From NCBI RefSeq assembly GCF_038396675.1, contig NC_088920.1, positions 65,548,501 through 65,612,500 on the forward strand: DNA of 64,000 nt. The letters are read 5' to 3'. Both the position numbers and the translations under genes were made by a program. The DNA comes from Hydra vulgaris. Its lineage: Eukaryota; Cnidaria; Hydrozoa; Anthoathecata; Hydridae. Below are positions 4,316 to 37,630 of the stretch, piece after piece (the first letter of the stretch is position 1; each line of letters opens with the position of its first letter). The notes under the pieces are model-generated. The model was given only the letters and a program-made list of their open reading frames with translations, had not been told where the DNA came from and did no database searches.

Positions 4316-6333
<2,018 letters not shown>

Positions 6334-6922: not shown

Positions 6923-9900
6923 GGGGCTGTTTAAATAATACGTGACAGTCTTAGGGGGGAAAGGGGTATTGGAAAGTGTCACCAAATATCACATGGGGGA
7001 GGGGGGGTGGTTTGCTACAGTGTGACGTAATAAATAACTTTTTAAATTAAATTTTTTATCACTGCGTAATTTTTTAAAATTGCAAACTTCGAGATAATTA
7101 TACACAATACAAAAATTTTCAAGAAAAATGCTATGCAACAACTTCACAAGTAGCTAGCGTTTATTGTTTAGCGGAGCGTAACAAATGAAAATAAAAAATT
7201 CAAATTAGTTTCTTCCTAAGTTACTAGTAAGTAATTGCAGACATAAACAGAAATTTTGATTCTACAAACATAAAAAAACCAGATTGTGGGCGATTATTCT
7301 AAAGCATTTTATGTTACTGTTAAAAACCCAATTTTATTTTTTAACGAATATTTGTAAAAATATACTAAAAATTTTAGTATAAATAGTTGTTTAAAATTTG
7401 ATCTTTAAACATAAATATAACTCTTGATTGTCATCTGATCTATAAATATTTTAGTTTTACAGCACTTTAATTTTTAATGTTATTGTTATTATTACTTTTA
7501 ATGTTTTGTGTCACTCTATTATAATGAATTTGTCGAGCTACTTTAGTTACCTTATCATTTTTATTATATATTAAGTTATTTAGTTACTATGATATAACAT
7601 TTTAGTAATAGTAGTACTATCATTAATGGTATTATTAAAACTATCTTTACTATATACTTATTTATCGTAATGATTGTAAGGAAAATTAATTTTTTGTTGT
7701 TGATGTTGTTATAGATTAAAAATGTCTAGTAAAAAAGAAAAACTTTACAAATCTATTTATGAATGATATTTAAAAGCATTTGCAAACAAACCGAAGCAAA
7801 AGTCGCAAGAAGAAACAAATAAAATCTGGTCTAAGATTAAAACAAAGAGCAAAACATTATCCGAATTAAATGTAGAAGTTGAAAAAAATTAAAAGAGCTA
7901 AAACAAATCGAACTCCGATATAAAGTTGGTATTTTATCTTACTGGACAAAATTACCGAACCAAGTACCAAATACACCAAAAAAGCATGTGGTTGAATCTA
8001 AAATCAGTTTTGATGGCGTGACTGATGCGACCCCATCAATTTCAACTCGGGAAGAGTGTGAAAAAAAACCTTCAATTTCTCAAAAGTTTTAACAAAACAA
8101 GCCCCGAAACAAGATCAGTTGAAAGATAAAATTTTTATTTTACAAAAAGATATTGCATATCTCACTGAAAAAAAAATATTGCAACTTGTTTTCACAAGAA
8201 GACTACCAAATACTAGGCCAAAAGCAAAAACCTTTGGTAGAAAAAAACCGAGATCTTGTACTTCGTCAAAAAGCCACTGAACGCCAGACAGCAACCAGAC
8301 TAAAAAAAAAAAAAGCTATAGAAGCATTAGTTCCAGATATTAGAAAAAAGGTGTGTGGAATTAAAAATTCAGTATCAAAAGGTCTACCGCTAGCCTGTGA
8401 TCAGATCAGTTTAATAAAAGCAATAGTAGATATTGTCATGAAAGGGTCTGCTTCTGATGATAGGAGAAGAACTGAAATGGTTCGAAATGTAAAAACATTA
8501 AATGACTTGGTTGAAGAATTGAAAAATCATGGTTACAATCTCTCGAGATCAGGAGTTTACTTAAGATTACTTCCAAGCAGATCATTGAGCACAGAAGGAA
8601 AAAGACATGTTAAAACTGCACCTGTCCGGTTAATAAGAGCACAAAATTCTGAGCATAAATATCATGCAGACACAAAATTTGCCAAATCATCCCTTGAAGA
8701 ACTTGCGGCAGTTTTGGGTCCTAAAGAAGCGACGTTTCACTCCCATGATGATAAAGCAAGGGTGCCAATTGGATTGACAGTTGCAAGCAAATATACAGGT
8801 ACAAGGTAACTTTAGCTTATCATAATTTTGTAATTGCTCCTTAACACAAACTTATTCCTTCAGTAATTGCAGCCATAGAAATTAAAAAGGAATGCATGGA
8901 AAAACAAGCAGTCACATACTCTGGCGCAACATACATAGCAATCAGATGTACAAAACATGATTCATCAATAGCACTTAGTCACTTAGAAGACATGAACAGA
9001 ATAGACCATCTTCCTGCATTTAAAAGCAGCTTATTTACTGAAGATGGAGTTAGCAAACCAGTCATGATTATAACTGTTGATGGTGGGCCAGATGAAAATC
9101 CAAGATATGAAAAAACAATTCATTGTGCCAAGGCTTATTTCAAAGAGCATGACCTTGACGGAATGTTTGTGGCCACTAATGCTCCTGGCAGAAGTGCCTT
9201 TAACAGGGTAGAGAGAAGAATGGCTCCGCTAAGCCATGACCGAGCAGGAATTATGTTTCCATTTGATCATTTTGAAAGCCATCTTAGTTTAATAGGAGAA
9301 ACAACAGACAAAGTTATGGAGAAGGCAAACTTTGCCAAAGCAGATGAATTTCTTGCACAAATTTGGTCTAGCACAGTCATTGATGGATTTGAAACTAAAG
9401 CCGAGTACATAAAACCAAACAGTGAAAAATGTGTACAGTTAAAACATTTCGGAGCAGAGTGGCATGCTAAATATGTCAGAGAAAGTCAATACTTCCTTCA
9501 AGTTGTAAAATGTAGTGATCAAAAATGCTGTGGTCATCGTTGCAGCTCACTGTTTCATCTTATTCCAACTAGTTTTCTTCTACCACCAATTTTTTTGTTC
9601 CAAGAAGAAGATGGTCTTGAATGCAATAATACAAAGAACAACTTTGTATCTCTCTTTTTAAACTTATCACTTTACAAAATAATTTTGCAAAGAGATAATC
9701 CCAATGGATTGCCATACGACTACTCATGTCCATGCATTCAAAATTCCTTACCAAAAAGAATTTGTACCAATTGCAGTTTATATTTTGCAACTGTCAAGTC
9801 AATGAAACAACACAAAACAGTTTGCTCAAGTATTGGATATTCGAATAAGATTCAAAAAATTAGACCTCAAAACCTAGTTGCTCAACGTCTATCTGAACTC

Positions 9901-10518
9901 ATGTGTGTCTTTTTAAGTTCGAACAAATAAACAATTGAGTGGTATGATCAAGACGATGTTGATACCTCTGACCTCAACTGGCCTTCAAAAATTATATAAA
10001 AACATGGAACTCCAATACTTGAAGGACAAGAACAAAGTCCGATTTGGGAACAAATTTAGTTTTTAGACAAATATAAATCAATTGTATTTTTTTATAAAAA
10101 TAAACTATTACAATTGAATCGATGTATACAAAAACGTTTTAAGTCATAAAAACTATTTTTAAGTCAGACAACTTTAACTATGTATAACACATATATATAT
10201 ATCACAAATTTTGATATATATTTCAACAAATCTAATATTTAAAGATGTCAAAAAGCACCCAGATTTTTTTTTGAATTCATTAAAGTAATAATTTTGGATT
10301 TAATAAGTTTTTTTCTCGTTCTCCGAAAAAATAGTTTTTATGGCTTAGAACGTTTTTGTATACATCGATTCAATTAAAATGTACACTTATAAACATTTTT
10401 TTTTGTCTTTGTCACGTCACACAGGGATGGGGGGGGGGGGGTTCTTCAAAATGTCACATGGGGAGGGGGGTGTTAGAAAAACGACAAAAAAAGTATCACG
10501 TATTATTTGAACAGCCCC
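6923..10518 (+). mobile_element. DNA transposon with both ends, TTA target duplication
   Basis: The left end starts GGGGCTGTTTAAATAATACG and the right end, reverse-complemented, starts GGGGCTGTTCAAATAATACG: terminal inverted repeats with one mismatch over 20 bp. TTA flanks both ends (6920-6922 and 10519-10521), a 3-bp target duplication. Just inside both ends are G-rich runs and a shared ATGTGAC/TCACATGGGG motif. The inside holds a broken transposase. A 3-bp TWA duplication fits PIF/Harbinger or Zator; the transposase does not look like a typical Harbinger nuclease to me, so Zator is the better guess. Superfamily is unproven. Confidence 0.8.
7722..9930 (+). pseudogene. DDE-type transposase, frameshifted
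   Basis: An ATG at 7722 is stopped after 14 codons (MSSKKEKLYKSIYE), and a lysine-rich N-terminal region continues with stops and frame changes. The main pieces are 8153-8809 and 8896-9930. Piece one carries KYHADTKFAKSS and FHSHDDKARVPIG. Piece two carries ITVDGGPDENPRY and NAPGRSAFNRVERRMAPLS, with FPFDHFESH after them; the Asp residues of HDDKARV and TVDGG are likely catalytic carboxylates. The C-terminus has a C-x2-C...H-x4-C zinc knuckle (RICTNC...HKTVC). A frameshift lies near the poly(A) at 8165-8175. A short intron may join the two pieces around 8800-8865. It belongs to the surrounding element, which probably cannot make its own transposase. Confidence 0.65.
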
Positions 10519-16907: not shown

Positions 16908-19900
16908 TACAGGTAGACGGGCCCCAAAAACCACATGATTTTTTCTTTTGCTGTATCTTTTGTACAAAACAAACAATTTAACTTTATTTTGCTTTTTTAT
17001 ATGCTTTTATATGGTAAAAGTTCTTCCCAGGAGTTTAGAAGTATTTTGGTATTTTTTGTTTGCTTTTTTTTTTCAGTAAAGTTTCGCTATATTTTAGTAC
17101 GGGACCTCAAAAACCGCATGGCTTAAATTGTTTATAACTTTTATGAAATTAGTTGCAACTTTCCAATTTTTTGGAATAGCTTGTTATATTAAAATCCCCT
17201 TCATATGGTAGTTTGATTGCAAACTTATATTTTAGGGAAGTACCTAAAGCGCTACAAAAACCACATGCTTGGAACCCCAAAAACCACATTAATTATATTA
17301 TTTTTAACAAAAATATAAGTGATATTACAAAAATTCATGATTTAAAGTAGATTTGTAGTAGTTGGAGCTATCTTTTTGATGATAATGAATTTATATAGAG
17401 ATTTTATTTTACGCTCCTGCTTAGAGGATAGTTTTAGTTCAGTTTGCAGTATGTGAATTTGCGATATTAGTTTATTTGTAAGCAAATAAATAAACATGAG
17501 TAACAGCAACAAAAAATTCAAAACTCGCTTGCAAATGAGTCACTAAATCCAAGTTCTAATGCTGAAGCACTAATTAAAAGAAAAGCTATATTAGAAAAAA
17601 ACAAACAACTTGAAGCTGCTGTTCAATGGTGTAAAGAAAACAATGTAAGAGGACATGCTGCTATTAAAACAAGACAATATCCACTTATTAAAGATCGTGA
17701 AACAATAAACCGTAGACTTGATGGGAAAATAGTCAATGGTCTTGAAAGACAGTACTGTGCAATTCTCTTGGAGGAAGAAGAGATGTCAATTGTTTCATAC
17801 ATTAAGAATAAAAATCGAGCAATGCAAGGCATAAACAAAGCAGAACTAACAAAACTTGTCCTTGAAGTTCTGAAAGTTAGACAATACACAAATAAAAGAT
17901 TGAAAGGTGGCAGAAAATTCATAGCATTATCTGCAAATGCAAAAAATGCTTTGACACAAAACAAGTATTTATGTTTCTTATATATATTTTTAAAAGGTAG
18001 TAATAGTCAACATGTTAAGATATAAAGAGATTGCTTGTAGTCCAGGAGTTGAAGCTTTGTAAGAGAAGCTTTTTTAGTTAATTTTTTATTTTTGTTTTAA
18101 ACACAGGTTAGGTAAATCGTTTTGGATGCGCTTTAAAGCTAAGAATCCAAGCTTAACACTCAAGCGACAAGGAAATGTGTCAATAAATAGAGCTCTCAAT
18201 TGCACGAGGGAAATGGCATGTCTCCACCTTGGTATGAGTAAACTTTGACTTTTTTATTTATTTCATAATATACTATAGCTTCATTTAAAATTTAACTCAT
18301 AGCTACACCTTTTTATTAGTTTATGTATTGCTACTGTACATTCATGAAAAATAGTTCTACCAAAACTGAGTTACTAATTAATTTTCATGGTTGCCTTTAG
18401 ACGCTCTTGCAGAAGAATTGATTGAGACTGGCATTATGACTGAAGCAGTACAAAAGGGGACAGGAGTTTGGTCTGGAAATATTGATACATGCAGAATATT
18501 TAATCACGACGAAACACCACAGTTCATCAATTTTGGTGTTGATGGTACTCCTGCTGGTCTTGTTTTTGCTGCAAAAGGGAAAACATGTTGTAAAATGATC
18601 GGAGAGAACCGTGAATGCGTCACCATACATCCTCTAGTATCATTTTCAGGTAGTTATTGCCTTATCACTTTTTTGATAAATATTTATAATATGGATTGAA
18701 TAGATGATATGTATTATCTTTCTTTGTAATTGTAGGAGACCTTTGTGTCTGTCAAGTACTTTTTGGTACCGTTGGAATAACTAATCAAATGGCTCCAAAG
18801 GAAGCTGTGGTAAGTACTCCGCATCTTCTGATAACAATTTGCAACCATGGTGTATCTGATCACAACTCGTTATTAGATATGTACAAAGAGTTTGATGAAT
18901 ATCTTACTGAAAAAAAAGTGGCACGACCAGTAGTTTTGCTTTCTGATGGGCATTGTTCACGCTTTAATTTTGATGTCTTAAAGTTTTTACAATCGAAAAA
19001 CATACGTATGTTCTTAACTCCACCAGATACCACTGGTCTGACACAGCTTTTAGACCAACTCAACAAAAACCTTCATCATGAGTATCGTGGTATGAAAGAA
19101 AATATTTTTACTGATTTCAATTCACTAAATAAAGAAGCTTTTATGATGATTTTAGGACGTATTTGGAACAACTGGGCCCCAAGACAATCTATAATCAAAG
19201 CTGCAAGACGTGTAGGAGTAACTTCCACATCATTAAGCGTCAATGACATGCAACAGGACAAGTTTGCACGAGCTGCTTTGTGTATTGATTTTTTAAAAAG
19301 TGTTACATCCAGTACAACAACTCCTGGAAGTTATACTATTAAATCTCCTGATAAAAGAAAAAATTCAGCTCAGTATTGGAAAGAAAAGTTTGAGCGTTCT
19401 CAAGAGCTTATTCAAGAGATTCAACTTGAAGAAATTTCTGGCTTACTGACAGTACAGAAAGTTAAGCCGAAAGTTTCCAAACTTACTACAAGGGTTACGC
19501 AGGTTCACGGATCAATGAAAGGAAAAAATGTGTTGGACTTAGTGAAGGTAATTCAAGATAATAAAAATCAAGAAATAAAAGATAAGGAAGAAAAAAGATG
19601 GAACGAAGAAAAACAAAAAGAAGCATTTTTACGGTGTAAAAATGAATGCAGCTGTGGAGAAGGTGTGTGCCATGCCATAAAGCTACAGCAATGCTCTTCT
19701 TGCCACAATGTACAAAAATCTGTCTGTGGAAAGTTATCTTGTAAAGTGGATGGAAAAAAACCAATATTGTTTTTAGCTGCTGCAGTAACCAACAACTCAC
19801 TCAAACGTAAGGTTATTGAGCATGAAAGTGATGAAGATACTAGAAGTTAGAAGGATACACCAAGAAAGTGACCTTACAGTGATAAGGAGATAATTCCATT

Positions 19901-20534
19901 ATTCTTAGTCAATTAGTTGATCAACTTATTAAAGAGTAAATAGTTTCAAAGATGTATAAAAACACTTTTAAATTGTCTTAAAGACTAAAGAACAACATTT
20001 CAATTTTTTTTATACAAATAACTAGTAAAAAAGTAATTTTACTTGATTGTTAATAGAAAAATAAATGTTAATAGAAAAAGCAAAACTCCATTTTAATATT
20101 GAGTTTTTGATCCATGTATATATATTTTTTAGTAAAGGACCCCAAGGACCACACAGAAACTCTACTTTGGTTAAGATAAAATATTTTAGCAACTGTCTTT
20201 TTCATTTATTTTCTTGTGTTTTTTTTGTAGAAGTATGACATAAATCTTTACAAAAAACACTACTTTGCAAACTTAAATGAAAATTTCAAGTATTTATGGA
20301 CTATAATGTCAAAATGTTATAAAATTGAAAAAAAATTTTTTTTATTGTTTTTAGTATAATTTTCAAAAATTTATGCTAATTTGGTTATTTTTAACAGTTT
20401 CTTTTAAAAAAACTATCTTGTCAAATAAAAAAATCTATTTTGCTGCTTAATAAGGCTTTATCTATGAGTTACAGGTACTAATGTGAGCGTGTGGCTTTTG
20501 GGGTCCATGAGTTTTTGGGGCCCGTCTACCTGTA
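16908..20534 (+). mobile_element. Pogo-like transposon, 3.6 kb, complete ends
   Basis: The left end at 16910 is CAGGTAGACGGGCCCCAAAA and the right end is its perfect inverse, ending CTG at 20532. TA is duplicated on both sides (16908-16909 and 20533-20534). CCCCAAAAACCACATG-type motifs recur inside the ends (17272-17290 and 20490-20515). It is inserted in the tandem array of the 6.7-kb element. The intact terminal repeats and nearly open transposase suggest a young insertion. Confidence 0.9.
17496..19850 (+). CDS. Pogo-like DD35D transposase, four exons
   Basis: Exons are about 17496-17964, 18107-18231, 18401-18649 and 18736-19850, with GT-AG introns and consistent phases (2, 1, 1), about 640 residues. 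The N-terminal part has HTH-like segments; exon 2 carries FWMRFKAKNPSL, the CENP-B/pogo DNA-binding signature. The catalytic domain has D in FNHDETPQ, D in LLSDGHCSR and D in TQLLDQLNK; 35 residues separate the last two. A Lys/Glu-rich helix follows, then an unusual Cys-rich tail (CSCGEGVC, CSSCHNV, CGKLSC). It should cut and paste the surrounding element at TA sites in the nucleus. One defect is visible: the only upstream ATG (17496) is out of frame with the rest by one base in an A6 run at 17511-17516. This may be a sequence error, or another start may be used. Confidence 0.82.
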
Positions 20535-21474
20535 ACTAGCCTAAATAAACACCCATAAAAAAAATGCAAGTAAACATTTTACAACTGATGAAACTTACAG
20601 TGTAATTTTGCATACCACATGTCAAAATTTGCAAATTATAAAATCATATAAACTAGCTCTATGTAAACATAGCTGCAACTAACCTAAATAATGATACCCA
20701 TCATTGATGGGTCTTTTGATGGCATCAAAAGAAATGTTAACATTTTTAATTTTATAACTGATTTAAATTTATACCGTAAATTACTACATGTCACGTTTAA
20801 AATAGAGAATTACACAAGGATATATACAAGTCATGTAGTCTTAATTATAGAAATAATTGTTCAACTAACCCTTTAGTTTATCATATAAAAAAATTAAAAA
20901 TATATTCAATGCTTAATATAGAAAATTTAAAATAAGTTTAACAACCTTCGAAATTACAAATAACAGAGTGTAATTTAAACTGCGTTTATCCATTTGCTTT
21001 CTCTACTAAAATTTAGTAAAAAAAGAAAATGGATAAACACAACTAAAATTGTGCTTTTTTAAAATAGCTTCACATTTAGTCGAAATGTGAAGCTATTTAA
21101 AAAATGGCAAATTAAACTTACTGCAACAAACCTTTATCTACAATTTAAATATGGTTTAAGAAGATCGCCTTTTAAAAATTTATCATTTATAAATAAAGAA
21201 TTTGACAAATATAAATCAAACAAACAAGACTTAAAAAAATAATCTACAGAGAATGCACTTCATAATTTCTTATTGAAACCCTTTTCAACAAAAACTTCAG
21301 TTGTTTTTCAACGGATTTGAATATTTAATCCGTTGAATTAACGAAATTTCGAAGAATCCGTTAATAGTTTATTTTACTCCGTTAATTTTGTGATTTTTGG
21401 TTACGAATTACTTCGTTAATTTAACGGAAAAAAGTAATCCGTTACTTTTTCTAACGGATTGTTTTTAGAGTGTA

Positions 21475-21580
21475 GTAATGTCAAGCAATGGACCTGCTTG
21501 TCGGCTATATCATGTGGAACGCGACTAGTAAAATCAAGAGATGATATTGATGAAAAGTTTATCAATATCATCTCTTGAGG
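21475..21580 (-). mobile_element. Upstream part of the split LINE, with fold-back
   Basis: This matches (reverse complement) the stretch 40830-40915 of the plus-strand sister LINE directly upstream of the interrupted point, so it is the other half of the 13370-14767 copy. At 21537-21580 a 20-bp arm (TCAAGAGATGATATTGAT) is present twice in inverted orientation, a local fold-back of LINE sequence. Confidence 0.75.
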
Positions 21581-21859
21581 TGACAAAGGTAACAAAATCT
21601 GAACCATGCAAGATCTACATACCTTATAAAATAAATATATACCTAAAATATATAACCATAAAATACATATTAAATCACATATTAAATACTGTACATATTT
21701 CAGAAGTGAAACTCACATTAAAGCATAACAAATTAATATGTAAGTATTACAACTACATATATTTTTTAAAAGATCAAGAATATTTTTTGTTTAAAAGTTT
21801 TTTTTTTATATAGATTTTTTGAAAAAGGAATAGATCAATTCAGATGAAAAACAAAATTA

Positions 21860-22990
21860 GGCCGTACTATTTCATTCTAGAGAAAAGGTTTACAATGAGA
21901 TATACAAAATAAAGCTTGTTTATTTTTGCATATAGGTTTTTTAGAATGTTATTGTTACGTAGGTTATATTTGTTTTGGGGTTTAATTTTGTAAAGGTTTA
22001 CAAAAACATTGGGGGACATGAGTTCTTTACATATGTACATAAAACACAAAACATTAAATACATTTAGTTGATAAACATTTAAGGCGTTTATTTGTTTAAA
22101 TAGCGGTTTAGAGTTTGAAAAACGATTTTCAAAATTTATTAAGCGAGCTGCATGTTCCTGATGCTGATAAAGAGATTTTAGCTTATTTTATGTGTACTTC
22201 ATCAATACTTCATGTAATATTTGCATGATTTTATGACAATTAATAAATGAGTAGTATGACTGTGTTAATTAGTTTTTGTTTAAAGTACCTCTAGATTTGT
22301 ATAAAATTCCAATAGTTTTTGCAACTTTATTAGAAATCCTAATGTGTAACCTCCAAGATAGATTTTCTTCAATAAAAACTCCCGAGATTTTCATCATTTT
22401 TTTCCTTTTTGGGATGACATTGTCGGGCGTGCTTACAGACAGTATCTGTTTTTTTATAGCTTAAATAGAAAAGTATCCATTTTGTTTTTTTAATATTTAA
22501 AGATAGCCTAGCCTATTTTTTTAAACCAAAATAAATTTTTTCAAGTTCGCTATTCATATTATTATAAAGTATGTCTATATTTTCATGTCACAGAAACAAG
22601 TTTAGTCTACAAAAATTATTGCCTTTAAATTGGATGTTTGTTAAGATCATTTATATGTATAATGAAAAGAAATAATCCAAGTATGGATCCTTGTGGGAAA
22701 CCATATATTATTCTCATTAATGTTTAAGATAATGATTTTTTGTTGAAAATAACTTACTTTCGATTAGAGATTTTTTTTTGAACTTGGACTTTTACCTGCT
22801 TTCTATAGCATAGGTTTTTGAAAAAACCGGAAGAACAGAAATAGTTATGTAGTTTTTTATATTATTCGGATCTTCTGTTTTAAAGATAAGAATTACTTTT
22901 GCTATTTTAAGAGAATCTGGGAAAGAACCTTGTTTAATGGATGCTTTAAAGGTTTCGTAAAGAAAACTTTTCATGACGTCATAAGAACTT
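21860..22990 (-). mobile_element. CR1/L2-like LINE fragment (second lineage)
   Basis: Minus-strand reading gives reverse transcriptase text: 22974-22792 reads SFPDSLKIAKVILIFKTEDP, NIKNYITISVLPVFSK; further on, ISGVFIEENLSWRLHI and TIGILYKSRGTLNK, then HAAHLINFENRFSNSKPLF and a C-terminal tail 22049-21867. Stops and frameshifts are present. It differs from the jockey-like family at 13.4 kb and resembles the copy at 53.5-55.0 kb. Confidence 0.75.
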
Positions 22991-23334
22991 AATTTCCGTT
23001 GTAAGTTTCATAAAGTTAATATTTTATTGTAAACAAATTTTATATGAAGTTAACCGTCTTAATAATAATTTTATATGAAATTAACAGTCTTAATAATAAT
23101 GCTGTTACAATCAATGATGTCAAAGTGACTGAGTACATTTAAAAGGGCTGAGTAATAGAAATTCTAGGTGTGCATCTCACATGACCAGTATGTTACATGA
23201 CCGGTATGTGCACTTTTATTATGAACAACTAAAATAGTAAAACTTAATAAAAGTTTGAGTTTTGGCTTAATATTTCCCACAAAAAGATCACTGTGCGTTG
23301 ATAACAAATTTATTTCAAATATTTATATATATTC

Positions 23335-23340
23335 TTTATT
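23335..23340 (-). promoter_or_regulatory. Possible poly(A) signal of MsrA gene
   Basis: AATAAA on the minus strand, four bases beyond the last SECIS-like hairpin. A second AATAAA lies at 23309-23314. Position fits a 3' UTR end, but the signal is common by chance in AT-rich DNA. Confidence 0.4.
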
Positions 23341-23343
23341 AAA

Positions 23344-23402
23344 CAAGCTGTTACATCAACATTTATACAAAATGATTTCGGAACAAATGTGTCATAAGCT
23401 CG
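23344..23402 (-). promoter_or_regulatory. SECIS-like element 3 (distal, intact core)
   Basis: On the transcript strand: stem I (CGAGCT with AGCTTG), core ATGA at 23395-23392, helix II ACATTTGT pairing with ATAAATGT (8 bp with one G-U), unpaired AA in the apical region, and core TGAT at 23358-23355. The ATGA-to-AA spacing is 13 nt and AA to TGAT is 18 nt, in the range expected of eukaryotic SECIS elements. It lies 3' of the TGA-containing MsrA reading frame. Confidence 0.7.
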
Positions 23403-23453
23403 TATATAACAAAAGAAACAAATGAACTATAAGTTAAATAAAAATTATATTAT

Positions 23454-23514
23454 GCAAGCTGCTACATCAACATTCATGCGATATGATTTCAGAACAAATG
23501 TGTCATAAGCTCGC
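23454..23514 (-). promoter_or_regulatory. SECIS-like element 2 (intact core)
   Basis: Stem I GCGAGCT with AGCTTGC (7 bp, one G-U), core ATGA at 23506-23503, helix II ACATTTGT with ATGAATGT (8 bp, two wobbles), apical AA, and core TGAT at 23469-23466. It has the best stem I of the three. It lies 110 bp from element 3 as part of a tandem triplication. Confidence 0.75.
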
Positions 23515-23565
23515 ATATTGATAAATGAAATAAATTAACTATAAAAACAAAAAAATATATATTAT

Positions 23566-23626
23566 GCAAGCTGCTACATCAACATTCATGTAGCATGATT
23601 TTAGAACAAACGCATTATAAGGCTCC
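23566..23626 (-). promoter_or_regulatory. SECIS-like element 1 (proximal, degenerate core)
   Basis: Same fold as elements 2 and 3 and the closest to the stop codon. The 5' core reads ATAA instead of ATGA, which removes a G needed for the sheared G-A pairs. Helix II is still formed, through G-U pairs at the changed positions. Probably weak or inactive. Confidence 0.6.
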
Positions 23627-23684
23627 TATATTAAAAATGGTTAAAAGTTTATCTAGAAATATAAATAACATAAACAAATACTAA

Positions 23685-26600
23685 TTATTTTTTACAGACT
23701 CCACCCTCACACCCTCCATTCATAGTAGTCTTTTCTACAACTTTTATAATCATTTTAATTAGATCTTCGTTAAGTCCCCACTTGTGGCATTCTTCAGTTA
23801 ACTTACTCACACTGCCATATCCATTCAAATAACCTGTTAAACGAGCAGCAACGCTTGAATGAATTACTTGAGAATCGGTCAGATTCAAGCTTTGAAAAAT
23901 CTTTGTATGACGCCTTAGTAAGTACTTTTGGTGGTAACTGTTGTAAAAAAAAAAGTGATAATAATAATAATTTATCTTTTTTACAATTTAAAATAAATTT
24001 TTACAATTAAAAAAAAAAATCATCTTTCATTAAGCAAAGCTAAAAATTTAAAAGACCAAACACTGTTCTTAGGGTGAAAAAAAAGACCAAACACCGTTCT
24101 TAGAGTGAAAAAAAGACCTAAGATCGTTTTTAGAGTGAAAAAAAAAACACCTTTACTGAAAAGCTGTTTCTGAAAAATAAGTTTTTCTCCTTCCCTTGTC
24201 GCAAGATAGTAACTCTTTAGCAACAGGTTCTGTATAAGTTGTCACAAAACCACTAACCACTTGCCCCTCCCTAGAGTGCGAAATAATTTATGGATGACCC
24301 CTTATAGTATGGAATAACATTTTTAAAAATAAATTTCAAGTTTCTCATCTGCAGTTTTTGAGAAAATAGTATTGGATCTGTTAAAAAAAATGATTCACAT
24401 GGCTATCGTTTTGTTGCAAAATGTCAATAAAAAGCAGAACATTTTTTTTGTTTTTTGTAAATGTAAAAAGCTTTTTGATCATCAAAACAGATAAAAAACA
24501 TTTCTGTAATAAAGGCTAGCAAACTCACATGTCTAAATCATTTTTCAAATTGTAAAGTTGAATAATTTCTAATATTAAATATTAAATTATCTAAAAATTA
24601 ATTTATTCACAAAATCTTTTATAAGTGATACAAAATCAGATTTTATAGAACAGCCTCTGGAAACAGGTATCCTGGGATAACTTGCTGACCTTTTAATTAC
24701 TTGCTGTTCCATATTTATGTTACCGAACTTTTTTTCTTAAAAAATAATATCATCTTGAGTCTCAAAAGAGCTAGAACTTCATAACGGTTTCAGAAATAAT
24801 GGTTTTAAACAAAAGCCAGTTACCTAAATTTTTTATACATTAAAAAAACAATAACAAAGTAATAGCAAGTTTTTAACACTGCTATTTTATTGCACTTTTT
24901 TTTTGCACTTTAGCACTCAAGCAAGTATCTGCTGTTATTTTGCACTTTAGCACTCAAGCAAGTATCTGCTGTTATTTTGCACTCAAGCAAGTATCTGCTG
25001 TTATTTTGCACTCAAGCAAGTATCTGCTGTTATTTTGCACTCAAGCAAGTAACTGCTGTTATTTTGCACTCAAGCAAGTATCTGCTGTTATTTTGCACTC
25101 AAGCAAGTATCTGCTGTTATTTTGCACTCAAGCAAGTATCTGCTGTTATTTTGCACTCAAGCAAGTATCTGCTGTTATTTTGCACTCAAGCAAGTATCTG
25201 CTGTTATTTTGTACTCAAGCAAGTATCTGCTGTTATTTTGCACTCAAGCAAGTATCTGCTGTTATTTTGCACTCAAGCAAGTATCTGCTGTTATTTTGCA
25301 CTCAAGCAAGTATCTGCTGTTATTTTGCACTCAAGCAAGTATCTGCTGTTATTTTGCACTCAAGCAAGTATCTGCTGTTATTTTGCACTCAAGCAAGTAT
25401 CTGCTGTTATTTTGCACTCAAGCAAGTATCTGCTGTTAATTTGCACTCAAGCAAGTATCTGCTGTTATTTTGCACTTTAGCACTCAAGCAAGTATCTGCT
25501 GTTATTTTGCACTCAAGCAAGTATCTGCTGTTATTTTGCACTCAAGCAAGTATCTGCTGTTATTTTGCACTCAAGCAAGTATCTGCTGTTATTTTGCACT
25601 CAAGCAAGTATCTGCTGTTATTTTGCACTCAAGCAAGTATCTGCTGTTATTTTGCACTCAAGCAAGTATCTGCTGTTATTTTGCACTCAAGCAAGTATCT
25701 GCTGTTATTTTGCACTCAAGCAAGTATCTGCTGTTATTTTGCACTCAAGCAAGTATCTGCTGTTATTTTGCACTCAAGCAAGTATCTGCTGTTATTTTGT
25801 ACTCAAGCAAGTATCTGCTGTTATTTTGCACTCAAGCAAGTATCTGCTGTTATTTTGCACTCAAGCAAGTATCTGCTGTTATTTTGCACTCAAGCAAGTA
25901 TCTGCTGTTATTTTGCACTCAAGCAAGAATCTGCTGTTATTTTGCACTCAAGCAAGTATCTGCTGTTATTTTGCACTCAAGCAAGTATCTGCTGTTATTT
26001 TGCACTCAAGCAAGTATCTGCTGTTATTTTGCACTCAAGCAAGTATCTGCTTTTATTTTGCACTCAAGCAAGTATCTGCTGTTATTTTGCACTCAAGCAA
26101 GTATCTGCTGTTATTTTGCACTTTAGCACTAAAACAAGTATCTGCTGTTATTTTGCACTTTAGCACTCAAGTAAGTATCTGGTTCTTGTATGAATTCTAA
26201 ATAACTTCTGTTCTTTAATGAAAGTATAAAAGCACTTAAAAAACTTTAATGCTACTGACATTTGTCAGAAATATTTCAGACATTTTGATTTTATATACAT
26301 TATCTCAGTTAGACACAGAATTTTGTTTAGCACCACTTCTTTTTATCTTTGTTCTATGTCGCTCTCATTCATCTCAAAACTGCACTTTTTTTGATGTTAT
26401 ATCTGATCAAATTGAAATAGCCCTTTCTCTTTATCCTTCAGCCAATATCGTTGTTGCTAGTGACTTTAATGCTCATCACACCAAAAGGCTTGGGTCTAAT
26501 GTCAGTGCATGCATTAAGGCCCACAACTTTTTACTTTCTCAATCTCTAACTTAAATAGTCAACTTTCCAACTCACTTTCCAGACAATTCGAATCATTTAC

Positions 26601-29600
26601 CTTCTCTACCAAATTTATGTCTTGTTTCTAATCCAAGCCAGTGCTCTATTTTTTCACATTTACCTTTAAGTGCTTCTGATCATGGTTTGATCTCTCTAAA
26701 ACTGTTATCTCATACTTCTTCATCATCAGAATCCCCTTATCATCGTACCTCTTACAACTACCTTAAAGCTGACTGGGACTCTTTACGTGATTTTCTTCGT
26801 GATGGCCCTTAGGTAAAAATCTACCGCCTTCCTGCTGACAAATGTGCTTCTTGCATAACTTCTTGGATTCAGGCATGGAATATTTTATTCTCTCTCGACA
26901 ATTCCAAGTCAAGCCTCACTCTTTCCTTGGCTTTACTCTCATTGTGCTGCTGCAATTTCCAATCAAAATCATTGTTTTCATATCAATAAGCAAAATAATT
27001 CTCCAGAAAACAAACGTCTATTTACTTTTGCTTAAAACAATAAGAAAAAAGTTTTGTCTAATGCCAAAGCCTGGTATTCTCAGGTCACAAAATCTTGTAT
27101 TTTATCACACAAAAAAAGGCTCTCGTGACTTCTAGAGAATCTTTAATAGTATCTATAATAAGAGCAAATCTGTTATTCTACCTCTCTTGAATGGTTCAGT
27201 CACCTCACCTAAAGACAAGACTGAATTGAATCAGGAGCTGTCGTCTATACTTACAAAACTATTTAACAAGTCCTTATCAGATTCTTGTTTACAATAATGC
27301 CGGAAAGCACCTATTATGCCCTATTTTCAAAAATTCTGTAGAGCAAATTTCAAAAATTCTGGAGAGCAACTCGACTAACTACCACCCCATTAGTCTTGTT
27401 CGCTGATGATACTACCATTTAGTCTTGTCTTGATAAGCCAACACTCTCTGATTGCTTGGAGGGGGCATTTGAGCTTGAAAAGAATCTCACTTTTGCTACA
27501 GCTTGGGGCTGTCAGTGACTAGTGAACTTTAATTCACACAAAACTCAATTTTTTTTGGCTAATCGTTATTGCAATAATCTAGATCTTCCTATGATTATGA
27601 ACAGTAATGTACTCAATGAGTCATCTAGCCTTCATCTTCTACGATTAACTCTTACTTCTGATCTTTCTTGGAAACCATATACCAAATCCATTGCAAAATT
27701 AACATCTGCTTAGGTTGCATCTCTTTATCATGCTTGTCACTTTCTTACTCAGGATTCTATTCTTTATCTTAATAAATTTAAAATCCGTCCTTGTATGGAA
27801 TAATGTTGCTATATTTGGGGCGGATCTTCCAATGATGCTCTTTCTCTTTTAGACAAGGTGCAAAAACGCATAGTAAACATAGTTGCACCTGCTCTTGCAG
27901 CCAACCTCCAACCATTATCTAATCGTTGTAATGTTGTTTATCTTTCTCTTTTCTAAAATACTATAATGGGCACTGCTTTAAGAAGCTAGCGTCTTTTGTG
28001 CTATCTACTAAAATTCATTCTCATGTTACTTTTCATTCAATTAAGTCTCATACTTTTACTGTGAATGTTCTAAAGTGCTCCAAAAATTTTCATTTGTCTT
28101 GTTTTTTCTCTCGAACATCAAAGGCAGCATGGCAGTTTTGGCATACTGAACTGGGTACAAATACAATACAGGACTTGTTACCAAAGAGTTACTACAAATT
28201 AAACAATTTAAATTAATAAACTATATCAGCAATTAGATACCAATTAAAAATGCTATTTTATTATATTTATGCAAATATAAAAAACAAAAATGCGGAATTT
28301 GTTAATCAAACCATTGTACAACATAGGAATATAAATGACAAGGCCTTTATGTCTAGCAATTACTATAATCGCAGTAGCTCATAATTTGATGTGTGAAGCA
28401 CTTAATCCTCTGAGGTTTAGGCCATTTCTTGCCTAAAAAACCAGAATTAAAGAAAATTAAACTTAATTAGTACTATAAAAAACCACACTTTGACTATATC
28501 AAATATTCTTTTTGATAGATGTTAAACTAGACTTATGATAAGCATCAACGTGTAAAGTGGTTTTGTTTCTAGGGTGCCTAAATAGAAACATTGGAATTGA
28601 TATTGCTGGGTCAGAAGTCAGTAAAACTATCAATTAAAATTAAAATTCTCTGTTTATTTAAATTTAAAATACTGATACATCAATATACTTATATGTGGTC
28701 TTGGCAATGCCCACTGAAAGCAGTAACAAGGACACCTCTCATGCACAGCATAGCAATTGTCAATACTTTGATATTTTACATATGTTGATAGAATCATTCT
28801 GTGAGCTACCATAAAGACTTCAACGTTGAAATTTTATTTTTAATGAGAAACTCTCCGTTATTGCAAAGTTATTGCAGCATTAGATATTAATTCAAACCAT
28901 AGTAGACATTTTCTATATTTTATTTTAGATTCTATGTTTTGGTGTGATGTTTAAGTATTTTGCTTGTTTTAATAAAACAAAATAAAGAAAAAGCTTATTA
29001 GTTTATTTTGCAGTAAATCAAGACAAAAAGAAACTTCAATTGGCAAATTTTAAGGTTTATATTATGAAAATTGTTTTTTGAAAGTCTTGCATTGTTTGAA
29101 AAGAGAGTAATAAATCAATAATAACTTTGTGATATTTGATGCAGGCAATCTGCAGTGCTTGAACTAGACTGAGCAATGAAAGCCCAGAGAGATAAAAAAT
29201 ATTTTTATTAAAAAAAATTATACAAAGGAGGATAAGTAATACAAACAAAGAAAAATAACCAGATGTTTAGAATAAACACAGAGTTTTTTAAGGATTGAAA
29301 GCTTATACACAAATCACAGTCAACAGTAATTTTATCATTAAAGTATACCTAAATTTATCAAAGTTTTATTGTTAAAGTAAAAAACAAACCTAAAACAGAT
29401 TGCATAAGCAACATATACAACCAAAAATCTTCATTAGATATAATGATTACTTTAAAACAAATATAGTTTTGGTTAATTGGTTAAATACGGATGAATCGTA
29501 ATTACAGAAATATTAAAAAAACAATGTAACTTATTAATTATTTGGAATTAATTAGTTTAAAAAAAATCGATTAAAAAAAAAATTTGTACAACCAAATAAA

Positions 29601-32600
29601 AATGAAAATTTTTATTTGGTTGTACAAAAATTGGAAATTTTGTTAATTTTATAATGATTTCAAATTTTTTTGAAAAAAAAAATTTGAAATCATTATAAAA
29701 TTAACAAAAAAGAGACTAAAATAATTTCGATTTCTTCGAAGTTCAAATTATAAAACTATTTACTATTTTGTGCAAAATTCAATTCTAATTAATAATTTGC
29801 AACAACAACAAAAATTATCCAGTTTTTGTAAAAGTAATAAAGAAATTTTAAAAATTAAAAGAATAAAGAAATTTTAAAATTTCTTTTTCAAATTTAAATT
29901 CGTAACTTTTTGAAATTTTGAAAGTTAAAACAACCTTTAAAGATTTTAAAGATAAGAAGCAGTTTTAACATATACAGTTTTTTGCATATTTGTTTAAGTT
30001 AAAAGTTAATTTAAAATTATCATTTTTTTTTAACTTTAATAGTCAAAAGCTACATCAAAAGACAATGAAAAAAAGTTAACACTAATGAGCTCACCATGAG
30101 AATCTACTCATTACTTGCATTTAAAGTGTTTTAATAACTAAAATACTTATATGCATGTTTATCTTAAATTAAAATATTTTAATTTTTTATTAAAAACAAC
30201 CCTAGCCTTCAAACCCAACTTAACATACAACTTTTAGAATATGGAAAAACTACCATATTCATTTATTAAAAAAACTGTAATTCACTTAAACTACGCTAGT
30301 CATACCATTTAGAATACAATTTTTAGAATAAAAATTAAAAAATAGCAATTTAAAAAAGTTTTAGTAAGCTTTATAATTTCGTTTTATAATAACATAATAA
30401 ATAATAATTGAGTGAAACTATTTCACAATAGCATACAAAAATTTATTAAAATGATCTACATTGTAATTAGTAATGTATATATAAAAAAAATTTAATGAAA
30501 TAGAAGTAAAATATTTTTTGAAAATTAAAACACTTACTTTTCAGCATCATAAAATCTTTCAGCTGGAAGAATCTTTGTTTGGATTTTTTTGGGGGTATTT
30601 TTTTGCATAAGTATTAAAGAAGACTGAGCAAGAGATTGTTGTTCTTCATCATGATAAAAGATAGCTGACATATATTGTGTTTTATTTACAGCGGTTGAAT
30701 CGTGATACTTCCAAAACATATCTAAGAGTGCACTATAGTTTGTTTCAGATGGATTATATTGAATTTCCATTGTCTCTGTATGATCACCACTAAATTATAA
30801 ACAATAACAAAAATTTTAAATGAAAAATTTTTAAAAGTTATTTTGCTTTATTGGTAATTGACTTAAAATTTTAATAAGGACATCAATAAAGATACTGAGA
30901 ATATAATACATATATGCAAATAAAGATAAGCAATAAAGATTATATGAGTATCAATAGTAATCATCATCATCATCTCATAATCCCTATTCTCCAATATACA
31001 GGATCTTACTTAACTGAAGCTTTTTAATGCCATCTGCAATGCATTCGCCTCAAGTTGGTTTACCTCTACTTCTTTTTCACCTAAAACTTCTAACTATCTA
31101 AATACTGATACCCAATCATCAAGGACTTTAAACTCTACAACAAGGTCTTTACATGCTCAAACAACATCCTTGACGCACTCTTTTAGATACATTCCATATT
31201 CCCAATTCCAAGATCATTGCTTCTTTTGCTATCATTCAGGGTCACACCACACAACTATCTAATCATCATTTTCTTATTATTTAAACTTTATAACATTTAA
31301 TTTAAAGTTGAAATTCTAAGTTTTAACTTATCATAGTTAAAAAAACTTGAAATTAAATATAATTTCTAGATAAAAAATTTAATTTTGTATTATATTTTAT
31401 GCAAAATATATTTGCAACTTTTTTACTTAATCTTTCTTAAAATTTTTTTACATAAAAATAAATTTTTATGAAATATTTTCAAACAAATTGTTTAAGAGTA
31501 TTCTCTTCACAAATGGAATTAAACTTTATGTCAAAAGAATTTGATTCAAAGTAAATTATTTTGATATAAGTTTTATTTATAAACATAAATTGTGTCGACG
31601 AATATATGCTCGGTAACTGATGGAATTTATTTATATGTTTTCATAATATTTATTAAAATATTTTATTGATTACTTATTTAAAAAAAAAATTGCGAGAACA
31701 AAGAGATTATAAGGTTTTATTATAAGTTTGTTTTAAAAAACAAATAATAAAGAAAAATAAACTTTTTTAAATTCCTAATTTTGATTTAAAATTTTTTTTA
31801 TAATTACATAGTTAAAAAGATTTTTAAAAAAAGAGTTTAAAAACATGGTTTAAAATTAAATTTAATCACAATGGGGTACTTTAAAAAGCATTAATAACGC
31901 AACTTAAATTTTAACGATGTAAATATGAAAGCTTTGTTGAGTTAAATTTACATTCATTATGCTTTTTCATAACACAATAGTATTTTGTAACAAGGTTTGA
32001 AGAGATATCAGAACTTTAAATACAATTTTTAAAGATGATCATGAAAAATTTTATTAAAAGTGGCCTTCTGTTGATTTGGGGCTGATTGCATTTTTTATAG
32101 ATGTAATGTGGCCTTTTATTTGTGACATCAAATTTAATCTCAAATTTTGGCTTGAGAAGTCAGTGTTCAATGTTCATCTTTAGTTGTCAGCTTTACTCCT
32201 GTTACTCTTTCTTTTTACAAAAAGTTTTGAGTGGCAAAAAAAGTCATGAGACTTTTTTTCGTGAGACAAAAGAAAAGTCATGAGACAAGAGACAAGTCAT
32301 GAGACATGAGACAAGCCACAACTTTAAAGAAGTTTACCTATTTGAGTGCAACCAAGAAAACTACATAAGCCAAGCTGTCTTAAATGTTCTTGATTATTTT
32401 TGTTGTAGTATATATTTTGTCTAGTTTCTTTTTGTCAATTGTAAGATGGCTCCATTGTGTTTCATGGAGCAAAATAGTTACAAGCCATAACTGAAATATT
32501 TTTTTTATTAAAATAATTTCTTTTTAATTCTTGCTCAATCTTTAATCAAATTTAAATTAGTTGAATGTTTAAACATTAAATTTTAAAAGAAATTTAAATT

Positions 32601-35070
32601 ACTAAGACTTCTTTTTTTAGAAAAAAAATACCATGTGTTTAATATTTTTTATTACAATGGTTTTAATTGACAAAGTTTAAATAATTTATTTTAATAAAAC
32701 AAAAGGTTCAACGTTGTTATTGATTGAAATGCCCATTCACATCATTCACATCATTCAAAATGGCACTAATACATTTAAAAAATTATAAACTTGCATTTTG
32801 AATTGAAAGAAAATTTTCAAACTTATTTTGAATTGAGAAAAAATGCAACTTCAATGATTACATTTTATTTAATACACTCACATTTTGAATTAAAAAGAAA
32901 ACATGCTTCAAAATGCAACAATGACTTAGTAAAAAACATAGTCACACTTCGAAACATTTTAAATCACATGCATGTCTAAGTTAATTTAAGTCAGTTTTTT
33001 TAATTATGTTTAATAAAATCATATAATGCGTTGTAGTACATTCAGTTTTTAAAGTAGTGTATAATTTATGTATACTTTTAAACATGTACCTAAAATGCTT
33101 TTTTAAAGGTTTCTTTTAAAAAATCACAAGGAACAAAATCTTCATAGTTTAAAATATACTTTAATTAATAAAAACTGTTTTGTAAGTAACCAACTGTCTG
33201 ATTGTCCTGCAAGGCTACATGGAGGCATTTTTTTCCCAAAATTTAAATTGCTATTTCAAAAAATGCTTTACAACACACTAGTATTATTTTCTTCATATTT
33301 ATCCCTTTTGTTTGTATTCAATCTTTTTGATACTGATATTGTAGTATTATTTATTCTTCTATCTCAGCAATCATGCATTAATTATCTGTATAGAATAGAA
33401 CCCATGATAAAACAACACTGAACTCTTCAGAGAGAGCTTCCAAAACAAAAATAAAAGTGAAGTTCTTAGAATTGAACCTTAATGAAAGTGAGGTTCTTAG
33501 AACTGAACCTTAATAAAAGTGAAGTTCTTAGAACTGAACCTTAATAAAAGTGAAGTTCTTAGAACTGAACCTTAACATTATTACTATTGCTCTAAATATT
33601 TTGACATTTTTACACACAGCCATAACAGCTGTTATAAACCCTCTATCAACATCTTAATAATATAAGATCAACTGCACTACCTCTCTGGGGTAGGTACACA
33701 AATGCAATCGTTTGAAATAACATTAGTCTAAAAGAGTTCACACTGGCAGTTTTTATTAAAAAGGAAGGTTTAATAAGCTCAAAGTAACTTTAAATGTTTA
33801 ACTTTTTGTATATTTAGCTTTTGTTTAACTTGTTTAAATTTTTTATATAATATAATTAAACTTTTATAAACAGATTAATTAAAAATAACAAAATTTTAAT
33901 TTAAAAAGATTTTTGTAATCTATTACCCCCTGATCTTTACAATAAACCAAAACGGACTTAAAATAGTCTTGTTTTGCAGCGGTAATTTAATTTGTAAAAT
34001 TTTGTCATATTTTATATAGTTTTACAATTATCTTACATCCATTTGTTGCTTCTCATAAACTTAAATTTTTAATCTTTTTATTTGTTATATTATGAAAAAT
34101 AATAACATATTCTATAAGCATTTTAAAAACAGTTTGGTTTAATTAAGGAGATCAAACGCAGTGATTAATTAAAAACTTTAAATGTCTTTTTCTAGAACAG
34201 CAAAAATGGACTTAAGATATTCTTGACAGTTCAAAAAAGTGTTTTTAAATAATAATAAAAAGATAATATAATAATAAAACTAGAACTCTCAATATATTTG
34301 ATATAACTCTCAAGTATATAAAAGAAAACCATTGATTTAAAACTAAATATTTGTAAAAAATCAAGATTTATTTCATATATAATACGCGTCAACGAAATTA
34401 ATTAAAAGAATTTTTAAGGAATTTTGTGGAACTTTATGATCCCTTACTGATAACTCCCACAATGTACAAGATTTTGATGCTCGGCACAAACATCTTGTAC
34501 ATTGTGGCTCGGCACAAACATCTTGTACAACAAAACTTTTGATATTCTGTCAAAAAAAGGAACTTTTTCTGTTATTATTAATTTTTCTTTTTCGAGAAAA
34601 TATTAACCTACAAAAATTCTAAAAAGTTTCAGTTAGGCTGTAGCTGAAATTTTGATTATAACTTTTTTATTCACAAAATATTTTGTGAACATTGTAATGA
34701 TTTTCAACTCAACATTTTTTAAGTAAAAATTTAAAATTTGTAAGCAAAAAAATTTAAAAGAATTCTATTAAACCACATTCTGAAATTTAAAAAAAATTTG
34801 ATGTTTTTTTTGCAACATAACTGACATATTAGGAAAAATTTATTGGAATATTTAACTTCATTAACAATATATGCTGAATTTCAGGTAGATTTAATAATAT
34901 TATTTTTTGTTTTTATGAAAAGTTAAAATTATGAAAACACTTACAGGTTATGGTAAGTTGGAAACGGATGTTTTCCACCAGTATATCCAACTTTGGTTGT
35001 TATAACACCGGGGGCACAACCAAACTGTGCCTCCGGAAACCAAAATCATGCCATAGCAAAAGTTGCTTTT
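23685..35070 (-). CDS. MSRA: Peptide methionine sulfoxide reductase A, probable selenoprotein
   Basis: Three exons on the minus strand: 35070-34945, 30789-30538 and 23937-23685 (stop TAA 23687-23685). GT-AG introns and phases agree at both junctions, restoring PTYHN-LGDHTET and FYDAE-NYHQKYLLR. MsrA reduces methionine-S-sulfoxide in proteins. The catalytic motif, normally GCFW, reads A-TGA-FW within ATFAMA(TGA)FWFPEAQFG; the rest of the 210 or so visible codons are open. Other family marks: VGYTGG, FWKYHDSTAVNKTQYMSAIF, and a C-terminal extension with SSVAARLTGYLNGYGS and a terminal CEGGVC that could hold the resolving cysteines. TGA exactly at the catalytic position, plus SECIS-like hairpins downstream, points to selenocysteine. 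The alternative is a nonsense mutation at that codon. The first exon (start Met, ending in two codon bases) was not found upstream to 64 kb. Intron 2 (6.6 kb) holds a satellite and a LINE. Confidence 0.88.
23941..24896. other. MsrA intron 2, distal part
   Basis: AT-rich intron sequence. At 24050-24150 there are three copies of a unit of about 35 bp (AGACCAAACACCGTTCTTAG type) with poly(A) runs. No gene is supported. Confidence 0.55.
24897..26185. repeat. 29-bp satellite array, over 40 copies
   Basis: Unit GCACTCAAGCAAGTATCTGC followed by TGTTATTTT, 29 bp, almost invariant across about 1.25 kb. Edge and a few internal units carry an extra 9 bp (GCACTTTAG). It lies in MsrA intron 2. Since 29 is not a multiple of three and the unit has no plus-strand stops, all three plus frames stay open, giving long ORFs of up to 407 codons that are not evidence of a protein. 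Confidence 0.97.
26250..28215 (+). mobile_element. Jockey/CR1-like LINE in MsrA intron 2, internally deleted
   Basis: Opposite in strand to MsrA. Endonuclease text at 26440-26560 (NIVVASDFNAHHTKRL), reverse transcriptase remains at 27150-27460 with FADDTT at about 27400, then the C-terminal part (MIMNSNVLNESSSLHLL, YHACHFLTQDS) and a tail to about 28215. Compared with the 40-42.5 kb sister, about 470 bp of the palm domain is missing at 27395, where TTAGTCTT joins directly to the GCTGATGATACTACC segment. Many stops. Confidence 0.78.
28216..30537. other. MsrA intron 2, proximal part
   Basis: AT-rich and non-coding. Two adjacent hairpins at 29584-29627 and 29638-29708 are the only clear structure. 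Confidence 0.5.
29584..29708. repeat. Two adjacent fold-back hairpins
   Basis: First: TTGTACAACCAAATAAAAA with its inverse, 6-base loop. Second: arms of about 30 bp (TTTTGTTAATTTTATAATGA...) around an A-rich loop. Both are near-perfect, suggesting recent fold-back insertions or small palindromic elements. Confidence 0.8.
30790..34944. other. MsrA intron 1
   Basis: About 4.2 kb of AT-rich sequence. A CATCATCATCATC stretch and a moderately complex segment at 30958-31250 stand out as possible old repeat. A GTCATGAGACA-rich patch lies at 32245-32310. No ORF with support. Confidence 0.5.
33447..33572. repeat. 31-bp tandem repeat, four copies
   Basis: Unit AAAAGTGAAGTTCTTAGAAC plus TGAACCTTAAT; four copies with few changes, inside MsrA intron 1. 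Confidence 0.9.
35046..35048 (-). other. MSRA: In-frame TGA at the MsrA catalytic position (probable Sec)
   Basis: The minus-strand codon lies between ATFAMA and FWFPEAQFG. In typical MsrA the Cys of GCFW sits here and attacks the sulfoxide. Sec at this site is known in some MsrA proteins, such as that of Chlamydomonas. Confidence 0.82.
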
Positions 35071-37029: not shown

Positions 37030-37630
37030 TGATATTTTACTATTTTAAAACTCACTGAGTCCTCATCTTTACATCTTCTTGGATTCTTATTAACTAATGA
37101 CCTTTCATGGAAACTATATATACAATCAATTGCTAAATTAGCATCTGCTAATTTGGTCCTATATGGAATACTGTTGTCATATCGGGCTGGTTCTTCTAAT
37201 GATGCTCTTTCTCTTCCTGACAAGGTCCAAAAACACATTGTAAATGTAGCTAGACTCGCTCTATCTGCTAAGCTTGAGCCTCTTTCCCATCGCCGTAAAG
37301 CTGCAACTCTTACTCTTTTCTACAAATACTACCATGATCACTGCTTAAAGGAGCTATCATCACTAGTTCTATCAACTAAAACTCATTCTCACTTGACTTG
37401 TCATTCAGCAAATTCTTATTCTTTTACTGTATCTGCATGCTCTAAAAACTTTAATTTGTCTAGTTTTTTCCCCAGCACTTCAACCCTTTGGAACACTCTC
37501 CAATCGTCATGTTTTCCTGACTCATACAACCTTTAACTTTTCAAGTCTTCTGTCAATCAATTTCTTGCTCTATAAATCTATTCTTTTTTTCTAGTAACTC
37601 CTAACTTAATAATGGTTGCTTGCAGATTTA
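37030..37630 (+). pseudogene. Jockey/CR1-like LINE 3' fragment
   Basis: The C-terminal reverse transcriptase tail: NDLSWKLYIQSIAKLASA, DKVQKHIVNVARLALSAKLE, LSHRRKAATLTLFYKYYHDH, then TLWNTLQSSCFPDSYNL and the 3' end. It is truncated at the 5' side. The ORF 37153-37536 is the open part. Confidence 0.8.

Follow-up and report, generated by a model that had tools for sequence, protein, structure and literature searches.

A probable selenoprotein MsrA gene of Hydra vulgaris with tandem SECIS-like units in its 3'UTR

Introduction

An exon of an MsrA gene of Hydra vulgaris carries an in-frame TGA where the catalytic Cys would be expected, and the question raised by this locus is whether this codon ends translation or would be read as selenocysteine (Sec). 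The stretch analysed, hereafter the window, comprises 64,000 nt (contig NC_088920.1, positions 65,548,501 to 65,612,500). A first-pass annotation, made from the letters alone, had proposed a probable selenoprotein, an interpretation that is supported by the results given below. Sec insertion in eukaryotes uses SBP2, eEFSec and tRNA-Sec, and bacterial Sec insertion differs from it.

Gene structure and reading frame

The MsrA exons and the elements that follow them are on the minus strand (Table 1). Exon A was found exactly where the first-pass annotation had placed it. It reads (A)KATFAMA-TGA-FWFPEAQFGCAPGVITTKVGYTGGKHPFPTYHNL, and its frame is open on either side of the TGA. The two further exons that had been claimed were also recovered and are joined in phase, since exons A and B end at GTAAGT, exons B and C start after AG, and the split codons CT/T and AA/T rebuild the conserved HNLGDHTE and FYDAENYHQK. 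The joined exons comprise 209 MsrA codons, in which, as had been stated, the TGA at 35048-35046 is the sole stop ahead of the terminal TAA (23688-23686). No second internal stop, frameshift or lost splice site was present in them.

Over the 29 kb upstream on the minus strand, a search with two donor rules did not reveal the exon with the start codon. One rule gave nine candidates and the other 45, 26 of which were viewed, and none was convincing. By eye, the viewed candidates were unlike the N-termini of Clytia-like relatives (MPSEE.VPKE..).

Table 1. Features of the MsrA gene and its 3'UTR (positions in the window)
Feature	Position	Strand	Remarks
MsrA exon A	34945..35070	-	126 nt, with catalytic-site TGA; sequence read directly; TTTTAG before, GTAAGT after
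In-frame TGA	35046..35048	-	eighth codon of the joined exons, at the catalytic Cys/Sec position
MsrA exon B	30538..30789	-	252 nt; GDHTETM...FYDAE; phase matches A (CT/T) and C (AA/T)
MsrA exon C	23686..23937	-	252 nt including stop; (N)YHQKYLLRR...NGGCEGGVCKK-TAA; holds helical domain PF20939
Tandem repeat	23337..23639	-	period 111-112 nt, 2.5-2.7 copies; contains three SECIS-like units
SECIS-like unit 1	23563..23630	-	core ATAA for ATGA, three helix I pairs broken; probably degenerate
SECIS candidate unit 2	23451..23517	-	helix I 10 bp, ATGA (T of TGA 23505), helix II 8 bp, apical AAA, TGAT
SECIS candidate unit 3	23340..23406	-	helix I 7 bp, ATGA (T of TGA 23394), helix II 8 bp, apical AAA, TGAT
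AATAAA	23335..23340	-	may serve as poly(A) signal; adjoins unit 3

Protein family and catalytic site

The domain search was done with the joined protein, in which Cys was placed at the TGA. It matched PF01625 (PMSR) with an E-value of 2.1e-40 and 138.9 bits (cut-off 23.7), residues 1-138 covering positions 1-150 of the 153 of the profile, which is almost its full length. In addition, the C-terminal part matched PF20939, Pfam's helical domain of selenoprotein MsrA (E 2.7e-06, 27.5 bits, cut-off 23.7). The best relatives of solved structure were 4lwj (E 6.3e-48), 4u66 and their kin, and we take 4lwj to be the selenoenzyme MsrA of Clostridium oremlandii (CoMsrA). The TGA codon aligned with the Cys of CFW in the solved chains (4lwj), and the catalytic C/U-FW motif is present as A-TGA-FW, with UGA replacing Cys. 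The active-site placement given by the first-pass annotation was thus confirmed, but not the residues of the GCFW motif that it named, because Hydra has A-U-FWF and not GUFW.

The C-terminus of the Hydra protein is NGGCEGGVCKK and another Cys follows FG. Near the C-terminus, five of seven hydrozoan-clade relatives have two Cys, one has a single Cys and one, a Clytia fusion, has none. Among the listed matches described in the next section, Cys was found in the last 15 residues of 18/42 Trp-type proteins (two or more in 7) and 21/25 Cys-type proteins, and after FG in 27/42 and 5/25, respectively. From these C-terminal and post-FG counts, we would guess that an internal resolving Cys is possible in Hydra MsrA.

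The catalytic codon in relatives

Among 5.8 billion proteins searched, 308 matched, and 120 of these were listed. At the aligned catalytic site of these 120 homologues, 42 have Trp and 25 have Cys, 46 start downstream and 7 are gapped or misaligned. Five of the 46 begin only 1-2 residues past the site, and many of the 46 are on short metagenome contigs, so that part of them may be fragments. The Trp would most likely be a TGA translated as Trp by gene callers, since Trp cannot replace the catalytic residue and these enzymes are otherwise conserved. The residue after FW also separated both groups of listed matches, being Phe in 41/42 Trp-type and 0/25 Cys-type proteins, and Hydra has Phe as well. 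Ala precedes the site in 4/42 of the listed Trp-type relatives. A reading of A-stop-FWF as decay, in which both flanking Gly are replaced, was considered and dropped in view of this Ala and of the Phe of the Trp-type proteins.

The models of Nematostella, Lytechinus, Amphimedon and Trichoplax begin with FWFPEAQF and that of Acanthaster with WFPEAQFG, in all cases straight after the site. As the first-pass annotation had anticipated, the gene is truncated in the existing H. vulgaris model (P0001, 161 aa; 95% identity over 77% of the query), which begins only past the catalytic site, at the Met encountered first after the TGA when the Hydra exons are read. The Clytia model P0083 begins where P0001 does, and its near-identical Trp-type relative P0002 has Met at this point, after HTET. 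P0083 is listed with an extra PF00001 domain.

The comparison with cnidarian relatives that had been suggested thus gave truncated models in Clytia and Nematostella and Trp-type rows in the clade of Hydra and Clytia. In a tree computed with the catalytic column masked, and whose bootstrap was not fully settled, this MsrA grouped with the H. vulgaris model (100/100) inside a clade of eight rows (99/97) with Hydra, Clytia and five Trp-type rows, which holds only Trp-type and truncated rows. The end branch was 0.014 and the stem shared with the H. vulgaris model 0.53.

Finally, 42 columns, the catalytic one excluded, were near-invariant (at least 93%) among the 67 Trp- or Cys-type relatives. The Hydra protein agrees with 41 of them and departs only at position 54, with N for D, which is a strong argument against a decaying copy. 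Of the 209 codons, it is the catalytic one that carries the stop, and Trp stands there in 42 of the 120 homologues listed; both facts indicate more than chance.

SECIS-like units in the 3'UTR

The first-pass annotation had looked to downstream hairpins for the SECIS. A tandem array with SECIS-like architecture was indeed identified in the 3'UTR, downstream of the TAA and outside the coordinates of exon A, but it was not scored as SECIS by Rfam: there was no SECIS match at gathering scores in the whole window, nor with E up to 10 in regions 18000-30600 and 23250-23720. The microRNA-like and other Rfam matches in these two regions were below gathering scores.

All three units can fold into helix I, an internal loop, the core, helix II of 8 bp and an apical loop of 16 nt that contains AAA. 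The core ATGA...AA...GA, both helices and the 3'UTR location that characterize eukaryotic SECIS are present in units 2 and 3, whereas unit 1 lacks this core (ATAA) and also carries a one-base insertion. The core pattern ATGA_AA_GA is given in a passage of PMC2679728. Helix I of unit 3 can be extended by two further pairs past a mismatch. As the AATAAA adjoins unit 3, all three units would be included in a transcript that ends at this point.

A descriptor was defined with RTGA, AA or CC 10-13 nt later, a 3' GA, at least 6 pairs in helix I and at least 7 in helix II. Over the 64 kb, on both strands, it matched twice, these being units 2 and 3 on the coding strand, a count that is not blind because the descriptor was written after the hairpins had been seen. 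In 20 dinucleotide shuffles the mean number of matches per 128 kb ranged from 0.4 with the loosest setting to 0.05 with the strictest; with the loosest, 7/20 shuffles gave at least one match and 1/20 gave two.

Comparison between the units showed identities of 58/67 in the SECIS part and 23/45 in the flanks for units 2 and 3 (Fisher p 7e-5), 52/68 and 22/44 for units 1 and 3 (p 0.005), and 56/68 and 30/45 for units 1 and 2 (p 0.07). When the units were placed in register, 94.4% of the cells were paired, versus at most 57.4% when they were slid. At one position of helix I, the G-C pair of unit 2 corresponds to A-U in unit 3. However, covariation among the three units was no better than with shuffled letters (346/500 shuffles were as high), and with three sequences only the in-register fit is informative of these two tests. 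The folding energy was little or no better than that of shuffled sequences (z of +0.15, -0.80 and -1.39 for units 1-3). Compared with the minimum-free-energy structure, the plain SECIS fold is less stable by about 3, 8 and 14 kcal/mol in units 2, 3 and 1, respectively, values in which the non-canonical core pairs are not credited. BLASTN of unit 2 within the window yielded no further copy, only short matches at chance level.

In a Capitella SBP2L test reported in a passage of PMC3328465, changing AUGA of the GPX4 SECIS to AUCC left no detectable Sec insertion. This result indicates that unit 1, with its ATAA, is probably inactive.

Other features in the window

The intron between exons B and C contains a minisatellite (24946-26122) with a unit of 29 nt (TTTTGCACTCAAGCAAGTATCTGCTGTTA), 40.3 copies and 97% matches, along which long ORFs run. 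Fragments resembling a non-LTR retrotransposon are found at 26240-28000 and 37033-37536, both on the plus strand; the stretches near 27830 and 37190 are alike by eye, and 26240-26551 gave a weak endonuclease-reverse transcriptase match (PF14529) below the cut-off. An open frame of 380 codons at 18708-19850 (+) has a weak match to the DDE_1 transposase (E 0.00063, below the Pfam cut-off). The plus-strand open frames 5111-5932, 8123-8809, 8845-9930 and 17504-18025, of 173-361 codons, had no Pfam match at E 0.01. No tRNA was detected in the window by ARAGORN, run with the bacterial code.

Discussion

The exons and their phases, the single TGA at the catalytic site, the conserved protein and the tandem SECIS-type architecture were all observed in the DNA itself. 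On this basis it is very probable that Sec is inserted at the active-site UGA of Hydra MsrA, directed by hairpins of the 3'UTR. The gene would be transcribed and three or more coding exons spliced into its mRNA. On reaching the active-site UGA, the ribosome would insert Sec instead of stopping, directed by SECIS unit 2, unit 3 or both, unit 1 being probably without function. The Sec selenolate of the enzyme would then reduce methionine-S-sulfoxide in proteins, and we infer that the resulting selenenic acid would be reduced either by glutaredoxin or thioredoxin or through a Cys, for which the C-terminal pair CEGGVC is a possible candidate. According to a passage of PMC2679728 a GPx of H. vulgaris contains Sec, so that this lineage probably decodes it.

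Less firm is what the array itself represents. We suggest, tentatively and with close to an even chance of being right, that in this gene with a single Sec codon the SECIS was tandemly amplified, at least two working copies being kept while the spacers drifted and one copy died. If true, SECIS copy number would be a natural dial for the efficiency of Sec insertion, caught in birth and decay. It is also quite possible, although somewhat short of an even chance, that Sec is inserted while the repeat amounts to an ordinary minisatellite, in which case only one of its units, or some element elsewhere, would act as the SECIS. Passages of PMC2874816 describe two candidate SECIS with one Sec codon in human Sep15 and Ciona SelW1, and call the upstream SECIS of Sep15 non-functional; the visibly broken unit 1 would fit the same reading. 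However, the core bases were kept in both units 2 and 3 while the spacers drifted.

A pseudogene or decaying MsrA copy, whose catalytic codon was hit by a nonsense mutation by chance, is very improbable. The missing first coding exon, the weak transposon-like matches and large minisatellite in and near the gene, and the broken core of unit 1 could be taken in its favour, but a decaying copy would have to reconcile them with 209 codons free of any other stop, frameshift or lost splice site, with the near-invariant columns kept (41/42), with an end branch of 0.014 against 0.53 for the stem shared with H. vulgaris, with a TGA located where relatives carry the Trp signature, and with two SECIS units kept between diverged spacers. 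That the real protein starts downstream of the UGA, as the 161-aa model does from the first Met past this codon, the upstream exon not being translated through the UGA, is likewise highly unlikely, because such a product would be deprived of 48 residues at the start of the joined exons, the catalytic one among them, and the codons just 3' of the UGA are conserved as protein across animals.

A Sec-containing MsrA is, in kind, ordinary for an aquatic animal. In 2012 it was reported in Nematostella (two genes), Amphimedon, Trichoplax, Capitella and Branchiostoma, one of the two Capitella genes being incomplete and without SECIS, as given in passages of PMC3473315, in whose main text Hydra has no occurrence. 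The Hydra enzyme has the same family and Sec form as those of these marine invertebrates, and differs in that its SECIS is a three-unit tandem array. In 2014, passages of PMC4244043 reported Sec-MsrA in the centipede Strigamia, Daphnia and the tick Ixodes, and the authors infer that the ancestral MsrA had Sec, which insects and vertebrates later replaced by Cys; these belong to another phylum and no SECIS array is described in those passages. The Sec MsrA of the green alga Chlamydomonas, which the first-pass annotation had named, is also mentioned in a passage of PMC4244043. Because of the 2012 and 2014 reports the finding is less new than the first-pass annotation implied: the kind is already known in cnidarians and other animals, and the Hydra-type member is new. 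No report of a Hydra Sec-MsrA was found among the open-licence papers searched, and an earlier mention is possible.

With CoMsrA the Hydra protein shares the two-domain layout, including the helical domain, which is needed for CoMsrA activity according to the abstract of PMC4333827. Passages of PMC4479559, where 4LWM is named as CoMsrA, give the Sec form a 20-fold higher activity than the Cys form and describe the enzyme as Cys-less, reduced by Grx and not by Trx. Unlike Cys-less CoMsrA, Hydra MsrA carries Cys residues, one following FG and a pair at the C-terminal end.

More than one SECIS candidate per gene is, as in Hydra MsrA, also described in passages on SelP, Ciona SelW1, Nematostella Gpx_a and amphioxus DI_b (two SECIS in each of these last two; PMC3473315), and Ciona SelW1 and amphioxus DI_b have, like Hydra MsrA, a single Sec codon. 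In contrast to the two-SECIS animal genes, Hydra MsrA has its units arranged head to tail as copies of about 111 nt, and it has a third unit, which is broken. No tandem SECIS was found in the literature among the matches listed, and the 'three SECIS elements' mentioned in the matching passages are elements of different genes. The tandem, partly decayed array is an unusual detail of this gene. As a natural experiment, it could show whether UGA decoding at a lone Sec codon is raised by additional SECIS copies; the question of SECIS copies has been studied in mice in SelP, which has many UGA codons (passages of PMC5133445).

All these results point to a redox-repair enzyme of Hydra that is probably a selenoenzyme, while the public Hydra MsrA model is without its active site, as are the listed models of several other animals. 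Since Hydra serves as a model of regeneration and low ageing, a selenium-dependent step of protein repair in this animal would be a testable link to both.
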